DNA from: an uncultured Clostridia bacterium
Lineage (GTDB): Bacteria > Bacillota > Clostridia > Christensenellales > UBA1242
DNA length: 64,000 nt
Assembly (NCBI GenBank): GCA_944350115.1
Contig: CALVNZ010000005.1
Coordinates: 1-64,000, forward strand
Reading direction: 5' to 3'
Positions 3,229 through 16,168 of this stretch are shown here, one piece after another. Positions within the stretch are counted from its first letter, which is position 1. Every line of letters begins with the position of its first letter. The position numbers were made by a program, and so were the translations under genes. The notes below the pieces were generated by a model. That model saw only the letters and a list, made by a program, of their open reading frames with translations. It was not told the origin of the DNA and searched no databases.

Positions 3229-5315
3229 AAAAAACTTTGGTGTTTAAGGAAATTTTATCCTCATATAAACTTCAAGAAAAAGATAAAATTTTAATTTTAA
3301 AACTTTTAGATGATAAAATAGATTTTGATAGAATTGATGAGATTCTTGATTTTATGACGGAACTTAAACTTGATAAAAGCTCACTGATAGGTTTTTTGGC
3401 ATACCAACTTTATAAAGTTGATCAAGAACGCGCTGAAAGTTTGCTTAAAGAATTGACTAAAGATGAACTTAAAATTTTTGAAGGTTTCAAAAGTTTGAAA
3501 GAAATGAGATATCTTACAAGAACTGAAGAAGTTGATGATATTAGGCGATTGTTTTTGGGGCTTGGCAAAGACTTGCGAGTGGTTATTATTAAACTTGCAG
3601 GCATATTGTATGATGTCAAACATTTGAAAGAACCATTAAGCGAAAAAGACAAGGACTTTGTTTCTAATGTCAAAGAAATTTTTGCTCCTTTGGCAGAAAG
3701 ACTTGGGCTTTCTACTATGAAATCTATAATGGAAGATTATTGTTTTAGATATCAAGATCCTAAAATGTACAATATGCTTGTTAATTCAATCGAACTTAAA
3801 AAAGATGAAAATGACATGCAAATTGAAATAACTAAATTTCGGTTGCAAAAAATATTAGATGAACTTGGTATAAAAGGAGAAATTCAAGCAAGACAAAAAC
3901 ATGTTTCTTCAATTTTTAGAAAAATAAAAACTCAAAATGTGACGCTTGCACAAATTTATGATTTAGTAGCGATGCGAGTTTTAGTCAATACTGTTGAAGA
4001 ATGTTATGCTGTTTTTGGCAAAATTCACTCAATATATAAACCTATGCAGGGAAGAGTTAAAGATTATATTTCAAATCCAAAACCAAACGGCTATCAAACT
4101 TTGCATACAACTGTCATTGTTGAAAATCAAAGACCACTTGAAATTCAAATTCGCACTTTTGATATGCACAAAAATTGCGAGTATGGTGTTGCTGCGCATT
4201 GGATGTACAAAGAAAAACGCGACAAAATGGCAAAGCTTGATCGAAAGATAAGTTGGTTTAGAGAGATTATGGAGAAAGCACAAAATTATTCATCAGAAGA
4301 TTTTGTGGAATCTTTAAAAACAGATCTTTACACTGGCGAAATTTTTGTTCAAACGCCAAAAGGGAAGGTTTTGGAATTTCCAGTTGGAGCAACTGTGATT
4401 GATTTTGCTTATTCAATCCATTCAGACATTGGAAATCATTGTGTTGGTGGAAAAATAAACAACATCATGAAGCCACTTTTCACAGAACTTAAAAATGGCG
4501 ATGTTGTTGAAATCATCACAAATCCAAATTCAAAAGGACCGTCAAGAGATTGGTTAAACCATGTTAAAACTTCCTCTGCGCGTGGCAAAATTAAATCTTT
4601 CTTCAAAACCGAAATGAAAGAAGAAAACATTGCCAATGGTAAAACAATGTTTGAAGAAGCGGTTAGAAACAGACAATTCCTGTCATCTCAACTTCTTGAA
4701 GAAAAATATATCGAAGAACTTTTGTTCAAATATTCAATGGATTCAATGGATGAGCTTTATGCTGCAATAGGCTCGGGCTCTTTGGTGGCTGCGCAAGTTG
4801 CAGGAAGATTTATTGCTTTATATTTAAAAGATCATAACTTACTAAAAAAACGAAATGAATCTATTAAGATAAAAGAAAATAATGATGGAGTCATTGTGGA
4901 TGGCACAACGGGGCTTCTAGTTAGATATGCGGGCTGTTGTCACCCTGTGGCTGGCGATGATATTGTTGGCTACATTTCACAAGGCAAGGGTGTTACTATT
5001 CACAGAAAGGATTGTTTAAATTTAAAATACTTGGATCCTATGCGAATAGTAAACGTCGAATGGGAAGAAAAAGCACAAAGAGATTTTATAATCGAAATCA
5101 AACTTATCGCTGAAAAAACGCCAACAATTTTAAATAAAATTACTTCAAACATAACCGCTTCTAAAATTTCGTTGCGTGCTTTTGAAGCAAAAGAAACTTC
5201 TGACCAAATAGAGTGCAATATCATTGTTTTTGTGAAAAGTCGTGATGAAGTTGAAAATATTGTCAACATGCTTTCACAAATCAATGGTGTGAAAAAAGTG
5301 ACAAGGATAAATTGA
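3225..5315 (+). CDS. Rel-type (p)ppGpp synthetase with degenerate hydrolase domain
   Basis: This is the long RelA/SpoT homologue, 696 aa, for the stringent-response alarmone. The synthetase domain is intact, with the RVKD motif at about 277 followed by the PKPNGYQTLH motif and EIQIRT. It is followed by TGS (about 370-435), a Cys/His-containing region and a C-terminal ACT domain. The N-terminal hydrolase domain is shortened and has lost its signature. The HDVVED position reads AYQLYK (59-64), and the ADRLHN motif reads AGILYD (125-130), so the Mn-binding His and Asp residues are gone. By inference it makes but cannot degrade (p)ppGpp. It overlaps recJ (ATGA) and hemZ (TGATG), so it lies in one operon with them. 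Confidence 0.93.
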   Translation: MKKTLVFKEILSSYKLQEKDKILILKLLDDKIDFDRIDEILDFMTELKLDKSSLIGFLAYQLYKVDQERAESLLKELTKDELKIFEGFKSLKEMRYLTRTEEVDDIRRLFLGLGKDLRVVIIKLAGILYDVKHLKEPLSEKDKDFVSNVKEIFAPLAERLGLSTMKSIMEDYCFRYQDPKMYNMLVNSIELKKDENDMQIEITKFRLQKILDELGIKGEIQARQKHVSSIFRKIKTQNVTLAQIYDLVAMRVLVNTVEECYAVFGKIHSIYKPMQGRVKDYISNPKPNGYQTLHTTVIVENQRPLEIQIRTFDMHKNCEYGVAAHWMYKEKRDKMAKLDRKISWFREIMEKAQNYSSEDFVESLKTDLYTGEIFVQTPKGKVLEFPVGATVIDFAYSIHSDIGNHCVGGKINNIMKPLFTELKNGDVVEIITNPNSKGPSRDWLNHVKTSSARGKIKSFFKTEMKEENIANGKTMFEEAVRNRQFLSSQLLEEKYIEELLFKYSMDSMDELYAAIGSGSLVAAQVAGRFIALYLKDHNLLKKRNESIKIKENNDGVIVDGTTGLLVRYAGCCHPVAGDDIVGYISQGKGVTIHRKDCLNLKYLDPMRIVNVEWEEKAQRDFIIEIKLIAEKTPTILNKITSNITASKISLRAFEAKETSDQIECNIIVFVKSRDEVENIVNMLSQINGVKKVTRIN

Positions 5316-10190: not shown

Positions 10191-12935
10191 ATGGCAAAGT
10201 ATAAAGTTCAAAAAAATAAAAGAACCATATCAGTTCGTGCAAAAAAAATTATAGGCATTTCATTATTAGCATTTTCATGCTTAATGTTTTTCTTCTTGCT
10301 TACAAACCTAGTTGGTTTTATGCAAGATTTTTTATTGGGAACTTTTGGTTATTTTGCTTATCCACTATTTATTATGCTTTTTTTAGGTGGGGCGGCTTTA
10401 TTAAATAACAAAAAATACAAACTTTCAAAAAAATATGCGATATTTTTATATCTTACTATTTTCATGCTTTTGTGCATAATTCAACTTGCAATCGTCGGCG
10501 ATAAGTCGGGCTCTTTTGGCGAATATCTTGCGTTAAATTATTCCAAAAAACACACCGCTGGTGGCATAATTATTGGTCTGTTTAGCACCAGTATTCTTTA
10601 CATGACAAACTATGTTTGGGCGTTTGTTATTTTCTCCGTTTGTTTTGTAATTTGTCTTGCTTTATATATTGATTCAATCATTTATATGCGAAAAAACAGA
10701 GTCAAAGAAAAACCTGTTAAACTTGCAATTAAAGAGGTTAAAGAAGAAAAGCCAGAACAGGAAGAAATCAATGTTGTCATGAGTGGAAACATAGAGAAAA
10801 AACTTTCAAGACAAGAAGCGATTAAACAAAAATTGGGGCTTTCTCGCAGAACAATTGCAGAGCCTATTCAGGTTGAAACTCCAAAACAGCAAACTGATCC
10901 AAGAAAACTTGAAGGCGAAGAATTGAAAAAATATTTATTGACACCACCAGAATTAGATGTCAACAATTTCTTTAATGAAAGTGCAAGAGCTTATGTAAGA
11001 AATGGTGTGACAAATGATGTCACCAGACGCGAAATAGACAGAAATTTAAATTCTTTAAAGCAAGAAAACAATTCTCCAATTATTTCAGATTCTTCTCCAT
11101 TAAAAGTGTCTACGGCGCAACCAGAACAGCTGGTTTCTGAGGCTGATGATATAATAAGAGAAGTTATTGAGGAAAGCAACTTTACTCGTGCAAGTCAGCT
11201 TTCAGTTGAGGACATCCAAAACGAAGAAAGAGTTTCTTCAAACGAAACTCGCTCATTTGAAAGAGAAAACAGAGATTTTGGAAGAGATTTGAGAAGGGAT
11301 CGTAGTTTTGATTCAACTGACAGAAAACCTATGAGTGAACGAGAACTTGCTGATAGAATAACAGCAGGGGCGGAAGGTCGTGCGGATTTTGATAGAAACA
11401 GACGTTTTGTAAATTTAAATAATAACGAAGAAGAAAAAACAGAAACAAAAGAAGAAGATGTTAAGCCTTATCGTTATGTCCGACCTTCAATTGATTTGGT
11501 GACAACACGCTCAACAGATATGAGTGACCTTGATGACGACATTGCAACCAAAACAATAATTTTGGAAAACACATTGCAAGAGTTTGGCGTTCCGGCGAAA
11601 GTTCAAAATGTTGTTATAGGACCAGCCGTGACAAGATATGAACTGGAAATGCCAATGGGAATCACTGTTAAAAAGATTCTCAATCTTTCAAGTGATATTG
11701 CTTTGGCTTTGGAAGCAAACGGGGGAGATGTCCGTATTGAAGCACCTGTGCCAGGAAGAAATGTTGTGGGCATAGAAGTCCCAAACGATAAAGTTGCAAC
11801 CGTTTCACTGCGAGATGTTTTAATTTCAAACGAATTTAATTCTGCAAAATCACCTCTTACCTTTGCAGTGGGAAAGGATATTTCCGGGAACATTAAAGTT
11901 GGCGCATTAAACAAAATGCCACACCTTTTGATTGCGGGAACAACAGGTTCTGGTAAGAGTGTTATGCTTAACAACATCATCATTTCTTTGCTTTACAAGT
12001 CTTCGCCAGAAGATTGCAGACTTTTGCTTATAGATCCAAAACAAGTGGAGTTTACGCCTTATGAAGGGATTCCGCATTTAGTTGTTCCAAAGGTCATCAC
12101 TGATGTGACAAAAGCGGCAAATGCTTTGCAATGGGCGTTGGATGAAATGGAAAGACGTTTTAGATTAATTCGTGAAGCCAGAGTAAAAGACATTGATGAA
12201 TATAATTTCACGCCAGAAGTCTTGAATGGCAAAAAGAAAAAGATGCCTTACATTGTTATAATAATTGATGAGTTTGCTGATTTTATAATGCAAGGCAAAA
12301 AAGAAATTGAAGATAGAATCATCAGGCTTGGACAAAAAGCAAGAGCGTCAGGCATACATTTAATTTTAGCTACACAAAGGCCAACCGCCGAATTTGTAAC
12401 TGGTGGAATAAAAGCAAACTTCCCTTCGAGGATTGCGTTTAAAGTTGCAAGCAGAGTGAATTCCGATGTTATTTTGGGAATGACAGGAGCAGAGAAATTG
12501 TTGGGGCATGGTGACATGCTTTATGCTCCGCAAGAATATTCCGCAGCTCCAAAGCGTGTGCAAGGTTGTTTTATCACCACAAAAGAGATTGCAGATATTG
12601 TTAATTATGTTTCAGTTAATAACGAACCTATCTTTGACCCAGCTGTTCAAGAAGCCATAAACAACGCACCAAAGAATCAAGGTGGGGAACAAGGTGAAAG
12701 AGGAGGCGGAATGGATCCTCTTCTTCCAGAAGCATTAAAAATGGTTATTGACAGCGGTCAAGCTTCGACGTCAATGATTCAACGCCGACTTTCAATAGGT
12801 TATCCTCGTGCAGGCAAAATCATTGACCAAATGACTGAAATGGGCTACATCTCCGCAGCTGATGGGGCAAAACCAAGAAATGTTTATATAACGCTTGAAG
12901 AATACTATCAAATCTTTGGCGACAATTATGACTAA
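10191..12935 (+). CDS. ftsK: DNA translocase FtsK/SpoIIIE
   Basis: This membrane-anchored, ATP-driven double-strand DNA pump clears chromosomes from the division septum and, in sporulation, packs DNA into the forespore. The protein has 914 aa. Four to five membrane segments lie in residues 20-165, followed by a charged linker (about 180-430) and a RecA-like motor with Walker A GTTGSGKSV near residue 585 and Walker B IVIIIDEFAD. A C-terminal winged-helix gamma domain (about 845-912) reads ASTSMIQRRLSIGYPRAGK. The mRNA appears leaderless. It precedes rimO, as in other Firmicutes. Confidence 0.95.
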   Translation: MAKYKVQKNKRTISVRAKKIIGISLLAFSCLMFFFLLTNLVGFMQDFLLGTFGYFAYPLFIMLFLGGAALLNNKKYKLSKKYAIFLYLTIFMLLCIIQLAIVGDKSGSFGEYLALNYSKKHTAGGIIIGLFSTSILYMTNYVWAFVIFSVCFVICLALYIDSIIYMRKNRVKEKPVKLAIKEVKEEKPEQEEINVVMSGNIEKKLSRQEAIKQKLGLSRRTIAEPIQVETPKQQTDPRKLEGEELKKYLLTPPELDVNNFFNESARAYVRNGVTNDVTRREIDRNLNSLKQENNSPIISDSSPLKVSTAQPEQLVSEADDIIREVIEESNFTRASQLSVEDIQNEERVSSNETRSFERENRDFGRDLRRDRSFDSTDRKPMSERELADRITAGAEGRADFDRNRRFVNLNNNEEEKTETKEEDVKPYRYVRPSIDLVTTRSTDMSDLDDDIATKTIILENTLQEFGVPAKVQNVVIGPAVTRYELEMPMGITVKKILNLSSDIALALEANGGDVRIEAPVPGRNVVGIEVPNDKVATVSLRDVLISNEFNSAKSPLTFAVGKDISGNIKVGALNKMPHLLIAGTTGSGKSVMLNNIIISLLYKSSPEDCRLLLIDPKQVEFTPYEGIPHLVVPKVITDVTKAANALQWALDEMERRFRLIREARVKDIDEYNFTPEVLNGKKKKMPYIVIIIDEFADFIMQGKKEIEDRIIRLGQKARASGIHLILATQRPTAEFVTGGIKANFPSRIAFKVASRVNSDVILGMTGAEKLLGHGDMLYAPQEYSAAPKRVQGCFITTKEIADIVNYVSVNNEPIFDPAVQEAINNAPKNQGGEQGERGGGMDPLLPEALKMVIDSGQASTSMIQRRLSIGYPRAGKIIDQMTEMGYISAADGAKPRNVYITLEEYYQIFGDNYD

Positions 12936-12949
12936 CAGGTGAGACGGCG

Positions 12950-14272
12950 ATGACAAAAGATGAATTAATTAAAAAGAAAGTTTCTGCGATAAGTTTAGGT
13001 TGCGATAAAAACAGAGTAGATTTGGAAAAAATGCTTTTTAGTTTGGCTGACTATGGCTTTAAACTAGTGGGAGATGTTGAAGAAGCAGATATAGTTTTGG
13101 TCAACACCTGTGCATTTATTTTGCCAGCTAGAGAAGAAGCGATTGAAAATATTTTGGAAATGGAGCAACTGAAAAAACAAGCGAAAATTGAAAAATTGAT
13201 TGTTACAGGTTGTCTTCCAAACAAACATTTTAATGAAATTAAAGAGTCTTTTTCAAATGTTGATGCTTTTGTACAAACAAAAGATAACGACAAGATTGTC
13301 AATATTATTGAAGACCTTTATAATGTTAAAAAATCAAAGTGTTCTGACTCTTATGAAAGAATACTTACTACATCTTGTGGTTATGCTTATTTAAAAATCG
13401 CAGATGGTTGCAATAATGTTTGTGCTTATTGCACAATTCCACGTATTAGAGGTCCATATAAAAGTGAAAAAATGGACAAGATCATCGATGAAGCAAAATT
13501 TTTGGCAAAACAAGGTGTAAAAGAACTTATCATCGTTGCACAAGACACCACTCGCTATGGCATTGATTTATATGGCGAGCCAAAACTTTTGGAACTTTTA
13601 AAGAAACTTGTAAAAGTCAAGGGGATTGAATGGATAAGATTGCATTATGCTTATCCTGAAATGATTGACAGCGAACTTTTAAATTTTATTGAATTAGAAC
13701 CAAAAATGTGCAAATATTTGGACATTCCAATGCAACACATTGATGACGATGTTTTGGCAAAGATGAGAAGAAAACACAATGAGCTTTCAACCAGAGCACT
13801 TGTAAACGAAATAAAATCTTTGCATCCAGACATAAAAATCAGGTCAACTTTTATTGTTGGACATCCAGGTGAAACAAGAAAAGCGTTTGGAAAACTTTTG
13901 AAATTTTTAAAGCAAACAAAACTTGATTTTGTAGGATTTTTCCCTTATTGGAAAGAAGAGGGAACTGTTAGCTATTACATGAAAGGGCAAAAGTCAGCTC
14001 TGACAAAAAAATTAAGGTTGAAAAAAGCACTGAAAGTCCAAATGAAGATTGCTTTTGAAAATGCAAAAAAACAATTAGGGCAGGAGGCTACTGTTTTAAT
14101 TGATGAATTTGACGAAAGTGATGGAACTTTTGTAGGACACACTAATTTTCTCTCTCCATCAGTTGACTTTGGTGTCAAAATTGTAGATAATAATAGTATC
14201 GAAATCGGACAATTCGTCAAAGTTTGTTTAGTTGATTTTGATGGAAATTTTTATAAAGGAGAATTAAAGTGA
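12950..14272 (+). CDS. rimO: Ribosomal protein S12 methylthiotransferase RimO
   Basis: RimO is a radical SAM enzyme that methylthiolates an aspartate of ribosomal protein S12. The protein has 440 aa. The N-terminal MTTase domain begins with SLGCDKNRVDLEKM, the radical SAM cysteines are in CNNVCAYC (about residue 155), and a C-terminal TRAM domain is present (about 380-440). DKNRVD and the pgsA/ftsK neighbourhood separate it from MiaB. The start has an AGGTGAG ribosome binding site. Its stop overlaps the GTG start of pgsA, so the two are coupled. Confidence 0.93.
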   Translation: MTKDELIKKKVSAISLGCDKNRVDLEKMLFSLADYGFKLVGDVEEADIVLVNTCAFILPAREEAIENILEMEQLKKQAKIEKLIVTGCLPNKHFNEIKESFSNVDAFVQTKDNDKIVNIIEDLYNVKKSKCSDSYERILTTSCGYAYLKIADGCNNVCAYCTIPRIRGPYKSEKMDKIIDEAKFLAKQGVKELIIVAQDTTRYGIDLYGEPKLLELLKKLVKVKGIEWIRLHYAYPEMIDSELLNFIELEPKMCKYLDIPMQHIDDDVLAKMRRKHNELSTRALVNEIKSLHPDIKIRSTFIVGHPGETRKAFGKLLKFLKQTKLDFVGFFPYWKEEGTVSYYMKGQKSALTKKLRLKKALKVQMKIAFENAKKQLGQEATVLIDEFDESDGTFVGHTNFLSPSVDFGVKIVDNNSIEIGQFVKVCLVDFDGNFYKGELK

Positions 14273-15132
14273 ATTTACCAAACAAAATCACAATTTCAAG
14301 AATCTGTTTAATTCCACTTGTTTTGTTTTTCTTTTTAGCTGATTTTATTCCTTATGGTAAACTTGTTGCAGCACTTATTTTTGGTATTGCAGCAATCACT
14401 GACAACATTGATGGAAGAATAGCAAGAAAAAGAAACATGGTGACAGATTTAGGAAAATTTTTAGATCCTATTGCTGACAAAGTGCTTGTCACATCAGGGC
14501 TTTTGCTCATCATTGCATATCCAATAGTTGGAGAAGGCATTTTGCAACCACTTCCAATCGTATTGCCAGTTTGGGCGGGCGTTTTGTGTGCATCTCTTAT
14601 GCTTGCAAGAGAGCTTATTATCAGCGCATTTAGACAAATCGCAGCCACCAAAAATCTTGTGTTGGCAGCAGATAAATCAGGGAAAATTAAAGCCTTTTTC
14701 CAAGATATTACAATATTTTTATATATGATTTTTGCGTTCATGGTTCAAGAGTTCTATCCAACAATTCAAGGTGTGCCATACACGGTGATAAACATCGTAT
14801 TGCTTGTTTTGCTTGCAGTGTCAACTATTCTTACAATTACATCAGGAATCAATTATGTTGTTAAAAACAAATCTGTTCTTAAAAATGGGGATTCTAAATC
14901 AGAAGAAATTATGCGTTATGACATGATTATTCCTGCTGTTTTGAGAGAGTTTATTGAAGAAGGAATTGTTAGTGAGGCAAAAATTTCTGAAAGATTTAAT
15001 GTAAATCGTAAACGCGCGAACAAAATTATTAAAGACATGATTGATCTTGGTTATATTTCAAACGAAAAAGAAAGCAATGAACATGAAATTTTGATGACGG
15101 AAGAAGATTTTAAGGAAACTTTTGAAGATTAA
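14269..15132 (+). CDS. pgsA: CDP-diacylglycerol-glycerol-3-phosphate phosphatidyltransferase fused to a winged-helix domain
   Basis: PgsA makes phosphatidylglycerol phosphate in the membrane. The CDP-alcohol phosphotransferase motif is intact: D45, D48, G49, A52, R53, G62, D66 and D70. Multi-span helices reach about residue 197. Normal PgsA is about 180-200 aa, but this one is 287 aa. Residues about 215-280 form an extra soluble module (IPAVLREFIEEGIVSEAKIS, then NRKRANKIIKDMIDLGYIS). It resembles the FtsK gamma winged helix encoded 1.5 kb upstream (ASTSMIQRRL, AGKIIDQMTEMGYIS). It starts with GTG after AAAGGAG, overlapping rimO by 4 nt. The fusion is unusual. Confidence 0.92.
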   Translation: MNLPNKITISRICLIPLVLFFFLADFIPYGKLVAALIFGIAAITDNIDGRIARKRNMVTDLGKFLDPIADKVLVTSGLLLIIAYPIVGEGILQPLPIVLPVWAGVLCASLMLARELIISAFRQIAATKNLVLAADKSGKIKAFFQDITIFLYMIFAFMVQEFYPTIQGVPYTVINIVLLVLLAVSTILTITSGINYVVKNKSVLKNGDSKSEEIMRYDMIIPAVLREFIEEGIVSEAKISERFNVNRKRANKIIKDMIDLGYISNEKESNEHEILMTEEDFKETFED

Positions 15133-15142
15133 GAGGTGAAAG

Positions 15143-16168
15143 ATGGATAAAAAATTAAGCAAGGCAGATGCACTTACGGAAGCATTAATTCAAATCGAAA
15201 AACAATATGGCAAAGGTGCAATCATGAAACTTGGTGACAGCACAAATCAAAAAGTTGATGTCATTCCAACAGGTTGTTTGACGCTTGATCTTGCTTTGGG
15301 AATTGGTGGAGTGCCAAGAGGAAGAGTTGTTGAAATTTATGGGCCAGAATCTTCTGGTAAAACTACAGTTTCTTTGCATATTATTGCAGAAGCACAAAAA
15401 CTTGGAGGAACTGCGGCTTTTATTGACGCAGAACATGCTTTGGATCCAAGTTATGCAGAAAAGCTTGGTGTAGTTTTAAAAGATTTGTACATCTCTCAAC
15501 CAGACAATGGGGAACAAGCTTTGAACATTTGTGATATGCTTGTTAGATCTGGTGGGGTTGATGTCGTTGTTGTTGACTCTGTTGCTGCATTGACTCCAAA
15601 AGCTGAAATTGATGGAGAGATGGGCGACAATCATGTTGGTTTGCAAGCAAGAATGATGTCACAAGCGCTTAGAAAACTTACTGGTGCAATAAACAAATCA
15701 AACACGACAGTCATTTTCATCAATCAATTGCGAGATAAAATTGGCGTGATCTATGGATCTCCAGAAACAACAGCAGGCGGAAAGGCGTTGAAATTCTATG
15801 CAAGCGTAAGGCTTGATGTTAGAAAAGGCGAAGCAATTAAAGATGGAGCTAATGTAATTGGAAACAAAACAAAAGTGAAAGTTGTTAAAAACAAATTAGC
15901 ACCTCCATTTAAAGTTGCAGATTTTGAAATTATTTATGGAAAAGGCATTTCAAAAACAGGTTGTATTGTAGATCTAGCTTTGCAATTTGGAATCATTAAA
16001 AAATCTGGTTCATGGTTTGCTTACAACGATGAAAAAATTGGACAAGGAAAAGAAAACACAAAAGCATATCTTGAATCAAATCCAGAAATTTACAAAGAGA
16101 TTGAAGATCAAATAAAACAGGCTGTTTCAAATGCAGGTTTGCCAACTGAAATAGGTGATGAGGAATAA
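15143..16168 (+). CDS. recA: Recombinase RecA
   Basis: RecA forms filaments on single-stranded DNA for strand exchange and SOS induction. The protein has 341 aa. Walker A is GPESSGKTT (about residue 69), Walker B is [12 protein letters not shown], and the L2 region has [10 protein letters not shown]. The ribosome binding site AGAGGTG precedes the ATG, 10 nt after pgsA. I see no clear SOS operator upstream, so transcription may come from the ftsK-rimO-pgsA side or a weaker promoter. Its terminator lies inside the end of the convergent pbp gene. Confidence 0.98.

Follow-up and report, generated by a model that had tools for sequence, protein, structure and literature searches.

A PgsA phospholipid synthase carrying a diverged FtsK-gamma winged helix at the ftsK–rimO–pgsA–recA locus of gut Clostridia

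The window (the whole stretch of DNA analysed, 64 000 nucleotides) comes from an uncultured Clostridia bacterium of the order Christensenellales with a genome of 866 kb (99 % complete). It contains the gene order ftsK–rimO–pgsA–recA, in which the pgsA reading frame is extended well beyond the end of the enzyme domain. The features of the locus are as follows.

10191..12935, + strand: ftsK, with PF17854, PF01580 and PF09397 all over their cut-offs
12711–12893, + strand: the gamma domain of ftsK itself (Pfam), in which QRRLSIGYPRA is intact
12950..14272, + strand: rimO-type methylthiotransferase gene, between ftsK and pgsA (ORF list and sequence)
14269–15132, + strand: pgsA fusion ORF, GTG start, 287 aa
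14269..14883, + strand: PgsA (phosphatidylglycerophosphate synthase) membrane domain, residues 1–205 (TIGR00560, PF01066, AlphaFold)
14401..14478, + strand: CDP-alcohol phosphotransferase catalytic motif, residues 45–70, intact
14884..14919, + strand: flexible linker, residues 206–217 (AlphaFold pLDDT, non-synonymous rate)
14920..15129, + strand: FtsK-gamma-derived winged helix, residues about 218–287 (Pfam, hhalign, PDB profile, AlphaFold with Foldseek)
14989..15015, + strand: residues 241–249, ERFNVNRKR, corresponding to E. coli FtsK 1289–1297, RQFRIGYNR (the KOPS/XerD face); diverged
15143..16168, + strand: recA (ORF list and sequence; the RecA reference for the locus survey)

The pgsA ORF has AAGGAG ahead of it as a ribosome-binding site, runs without an internal stop, overlaps the rimO stop by 4 nt and ends 10 nt before the recA start. 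A preliminary description of this DNA had put ftsK just upstream of pgsA; it is indeed upstream, but two genes away, with rimO in between. In Firmicutes cinA is usually found between pgsA and recA; in the window (15132–15143) cinA is absent and pgsA leads straight into recA.

Residues 1–205 score 117.6 bits against the TIGR00560 pgsA equivalog model, over its curated cut-off of 109.1, match PF01066 (CDP-alcohol phosphatidyltransferase) with E=1.8e-33 and form six long helices in the AlphaFold model. The catalytic motif reads D45-x2-D48-G49-x2-A52-R53-x8-G62-x3-D66-x3-D70, and in an alignment of 35 PgsA sequences D45, D48, G49, A52, R53, G62 and D70 are invariant and D66 is conserved in more than 90 %. 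The protein thus resembles PgsA elsewhere in having the whole enzyme domain, an intact catalytic motif and a conserved recA neighbourhood. It is the only PF01066 member in the 99 %-complete genome, and the predicted PGP synthase is therefore presumably active and the fused protein should carry an essential step; it is the sole enzyme for the cell's main anionic membrane lipids. The difference from ordinary PgsA lies at the C terminus. As the preliminary description had stated, PgsA of other bacteria ends near residue 200 (near 180–210 in ordinary PgsA, and frames in our phylum-wide sample are mostly about 170–220 aa), whereas the window protein has about 80 further, separately folded residues; residues 206–287 lie outside the TIGR00560 model. 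In the phylum-wide sample of 199 genomes, the window's genome was the only one with a PgsA aligning past residue 229, a search that a strongly diverged tail could escape. Within the genus, a second class of PgsA tail is acidic or Lys-rich, 20–90 residues long and apparently without a fold; such tails might be gamma domains in decay.

Searched alone against Pfam, the tail finds FtsK_gamma as its best match (E=2.8e-6, 27.4 bits). The window protein falls below the PF09397 gathering cut-off of 30.6 bits, with 23.9–27.7 bits, and on these scores the tail is homologous to the PF09397 family without being a strict member of it. FtsK_gamma is matched by 13 of the 14 orthologous tails introduced below (best E 8.5e-10); one orthologue, G093, passes the 30.6 cut-off with 34.8 bits, and another clade member, G119, has a tail that gives no FtsK_gamma match on its own. 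The profile of the tails aligned to that of the FtsK-gamma domains of the genus by hhalign with a probability of 99 % (E=8.7e-18, 71 columns, 31 % identity), and this alignment extends past the Pfam domain into an N-terminal D-x-LLP-x-AL helix and a C-terminal T-x-EE-F/Y-x-x-x-F extension; in more general form, D-x-[LI]-[LI]-P-x-[AV]-[LM] and S/T-x-E-E-F/Y-x-x-x-F are common to the gamma domains and the tails of the genus. In the AlphaFold model, whose input alignment contained FtsK-gamma rows, the tail is a separate winged helix at about residues 220–286 (mean pLDDT 85) behind a linker with pLDDT below 50 at 207–216. Non-synonymous change is fastest in the linker, and the tail in turn evolves faster than the PgsA core. 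E. coli FtsK-gamma (2j5p) ranked first both in a sequence-profile search of the PDB and in a Foldseek search with the modelled tail (TM 0.68, rmsd 1.3, a modest E of 5e-3), while a single-sequence phmmer search of the PDB gave weak, unspecific matches only. A generic transcription-factor helix–turn–helix was considered and rejected: for the window protein its Pfam matches were weaker than FtsK_gamma, and the PDB profile and Foldseek searches placed FtsK-gamma first. The soluble, helix–turn–helix-type extension and its likeness to FtsK-gamma, both claimed at the outset, are thus borne out by sequence and modelled structure alike. The RecA-type motor to which gamma is fused in FtsK is absent from the window protein. 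That this is a genuine fusion of PgsA and FtsK-gamma we regard as very nearly certain, and the gamma domain of the window's own ftsK represents the probable source family.

The survey of related pgsA genes that had been suggested found the same fusion in 19 of 112 congeneric genomes (profile search), the remaining 93 showing no gamma tail on PgsA, and uncovered wider PgsA–FtsK links in another family of the order, described below. Fourteen of the 19, the window included, form one clade of species-level genomes, all small-genome gut Clostridia: the 13 complete members that were tested grouped in the PgsA-core tree (support 86/51), and all 14 tails were monophyletic in the gamma-domain tree (99/100). 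The other five are scattered outside the clade. Three of these exceed the PF09397 cut-off (G014, 49.3; G125, 61.9; G062, 66.6 bits), and their scores leave no doubt that the domain is FtsK_gamma. The PgsA-core tree requires six gains or losses, with the outgroup G038 counted, and a single origin of the PgsA–gamma fusion was not rejected by the AU test (p=0.229). Pairwise omega for the tail was 0.04 for G025/G005 (dN 0.085, dS 2.18), 0.10 for G005/G088 and 0.12 for G000/G032, rough values in that for most of the pairs dS approaches saturation; on these ratios the tail is under purifying selection and the fusion is retained by selection. The genome, like those of its named relatives, is apparently a metagenome assembly, and a frame error, an assembly chimera or a non-functional read-through of two genes might on that account be suspected. 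Several studies nevertheless contributed to the 14 genomes that share the fusion, each of them a separate species; this conservation, a dN/dS well below 1 and the lack of an in-frame stop exclude such an artefact, to which we assign a negligible probability.

In E. coli FtsK-gamma, KOPS DNA and XerD are both contacted by a single surface that lies between helices 2 and 3, residues 1289–1297 suffice for XerD activation, and R1289E is strongly defective (PMC5052618). We compared this face column by column between the 14 tails of the clade and 14 FtsK-gamma domains of the genus. The KOPS-contact positions, which we take to be N1296, R1300 and E1303 in E. coli FtsK, were considered together with R1289 and G1294-Y1295. 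None of the 14 tails retains R1289, which has given way to E, D, S, T or A, and positions 1294, 1295, 1296 and 1303 are hypervariable in the tails and invariant in the FtsK-gamma domains. Among these contact residues the conserved basic residue is kept in the window's clade (clade A) only at R1300 (K252, invariant); R249, at the position of R1297, is nearly invariant. The exposed start of the recognition helix is among the most variable parts of the domain in clade A, with about 2–2.9 bits of variability compared with 0 in FtsK-gamma. What the clade conserves lies elsewhere: F228, G232, R242, F243, K252, M257, G261-Y262-I263 and F285 form an invariant scaffold, and the conserved set comprises YD-IIP, EF, RFN, K252, GYIS, EIL and the C-terminal F. 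The tails are also acidic (pI 4.1–5.1), their net charge lying between −2 and −12, compared with −2 to −4 in FtsK-gamma. The tail is therefore like FtsK/SpoIIIE gamma (PF09397) in its winged-helix fold and unlike it in being carried by a lipid synthase and not a DNA motor, in having lost the KOPS/XerD residues and in being more acidic.

A sequence reader would be expected to keep the KOPS/XerD positions, and the clade keeps others; in the window's clade the tail is therefore more likely to dock onto protein than to read DNA. The original proposal of a DNA-sequence-reading module is not supported for the window protein: in all 14 members of the clade the face is lost or hypervariable, the domain acidic and the scaffold conserved. 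Its alternative, a copy from ftsK that now binds protein, fits better; the capture route, the partner and the septal targeting are our own inference. In a different version of DNA binding, the winged helix would still contact DNA with altered or relaxed specificity, tethering PgsA and the surrounding membrane to the nucleoid. The fold, the FtsK-gamma ancestry and the conservation of R249 and K252, which leave some basic surface that could touch DNA, all speak for this, as do G125, G062 and G014, which retain the GYPRA motif and pass the Pfam cut-off. Such a tether sits poorly with the variable start of the recognition helix, the strong acidity and the replacement of R1289 by acidic or small residues, and we think it improbable for the clade. 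A GYPRA-type face is kept not only in those three congeners but also in the gamma domain of the PgsA–FtsK fusions described below, and binding of DNA or XerD by these proteins is possible from their sequences. The DNA-reading interpretation is thus partly supported.

FtsK-gamma domains occur in the genus also as free small proteins and in fusions to unrelated domains. A 206-aa tandem FtsK-gamma ORF lies immediately 3′ of ftsK in one congener (G124, locus L109, contig C12, about 786–1400); several congeners have a stand-alone FtsK-gamma-like protein of 86–87 aa (L110–L114); and proteins of 233–329 aa combine an N-terminal FtsK-gamma with an uncharacterized C-terminal domain (L103, L106, L107 and L108). 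In f3, the other family of the same order, G038 has a PgsA with a gamma-like tail, and in genus g68 a gene that abuts pgsA downstream encodes a protein of roughly 186 aa with two gamma-like winged helices (loci of this type are L240, at 3926–4483, L251, L209, L212, L213, L218, L239 and others). Additional gamma or motor ORFs lie between ftsK and rimO in G333, G281, G258 and G353, the one in G353 (L243, 709–1846) being a second FtsK-like motor of 379 aa without gamma. Two genomes, G372 (L232, C56; 821 aa) and G376 (L262, C43; 756 aa), encode, at the ftsK–rimO–pgsA–recA locus, a PgsA that is followed in the same frame by an acidic linker, an FtsK motor and gamma; in G372 a single contig carries an ordinary FtsK C terminus and rimO just upstream of the fusion, and recA downstream. 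The motors of both fusions have an intact Walker A motif and a replaced Walker B glutamate (IDNF, ADGF), and are thus probably not normal ATPases. Judged from these gene arrangements, the ftsK–rimO–pgsA–recA locus is a hotspot for duplication and capture of FtsK C-terminal pieces, and such repeated local duplications make a copy of the ftsK 3′ end a plausible source of the tail.

Our working hypothesis is that a copy of the FtsK gamma domain was captured onto pgsA at this locus, probably after the 3′ end of ftsK had been duplicated in place. PgsA proteins have six membrane helices, with the active site and the C terminus in the cytoplasm, so the winged helix would hang in the cytoplasm on its linker of about 12 residues behind the membrane domain. 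There the tail, mainly as a protein-docking module, would hold the sole PG synthase at the division/FtsK machinery, so that anionic lipid would be produced at the site of septum closure and chromosome pumping. FtsK itself or another divisome protein may be the partner. A septal FtsK or divisome partner is the most economical candidate, since FtsK parts of three sizes are linked to PgsA and since the septal localization of PgsA in B. subtilis is still unexplained (PMC4464175; PMC5073135). Against this, 93 of 112 congeners show no gamma tail, which is therefore not generally needed, and FtsK-gamma pieces on unrelated proteins indicate that capture could be partly opportunistic. We give the explanation as a whole, a working PgsA with a diverged, captured gamma domain kept by selection and docking at the division/FtsK site, a probability of about one half.

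The tail might instead be an internal regulatory or stabilizing domain of PgsA, acting in dimerization or in control of the substrate channel, its FtsK origin an accident of neighbourhood and its function unrelated to FtsK or DNA. A locus prone to duplication, the attachment of FtsK-gamma to several unrelated proteins and the acidic, apparently unstructured PgsA tails of many other congeners would fit this, but it leaves unexplained why FtsK parts of differing size arrived at the same enzyme in separate lineages, and we consider it rather unlikely, if somewhat less so than the tether to the nucleoid. The docking hypothesis can also be extended across the order: tails of FtsK origin (single or tandem gamma, or a pseudo-motor with gamma) would put the sole anionic-phospholipid synthase into or onto the septal FtsK assembly, coupling PG synthesis to pumping and septum closure. 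This extension is speculative; were it true, the PgsA–motor–gamma proteins would be membrane-anchored partner subunits of FtsK.

No earlier report of a PgsA–FtsK fusion was found in the literature searched, which covered a minority of subscription papers. A precedent for gamma on a non-FtsK protein is the phage small terminase Sam46/Sam112, with an N-terminal FtsK_gamma (PMC8190038); there the domain belongs to a protein of DNA packaging and its DNA-binding face is conserved, whereas the window protein is a membrane lipid enzyme in which the face is lost. Bacillus RodZ resembles the fusion in being a membrane protein with a cytoplasmic HTH that is genetically tied to pgsA (PMC5073135), and differs in being a separate protein with an Xre-type HTH not derived from FtsK. 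In B. subtilis rodZ, encoding this HTH membrane protein, adjoins pgsA, and its overexpression left pgsA expression unchanged (PMC5073135). B. subtilis PgsA, without the C-terminal amphipathic helices credited with septal targeting of ClsA (reviewed in PMC4464175), reaches the septum nonetheless.

How phospholipid synthases arrive at the septum is a question for which these natural fusions point to FtsK as a candidate link, and they supply a ready-made domain with which septal targeting may be tested. They present FtsK-gamma as a mobile module whose DNA-reading face can go while the fold stays, and, judging by the PgsA–FtsK motor fusions, FtsK-like motors may be anchored in the membrane in a second way. 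The repeated capture of FtsK parts by PgsA suggests that, during division, the synthesis of membrane lipids is physically coupled to chromosome segregation in a manner not recognized before.
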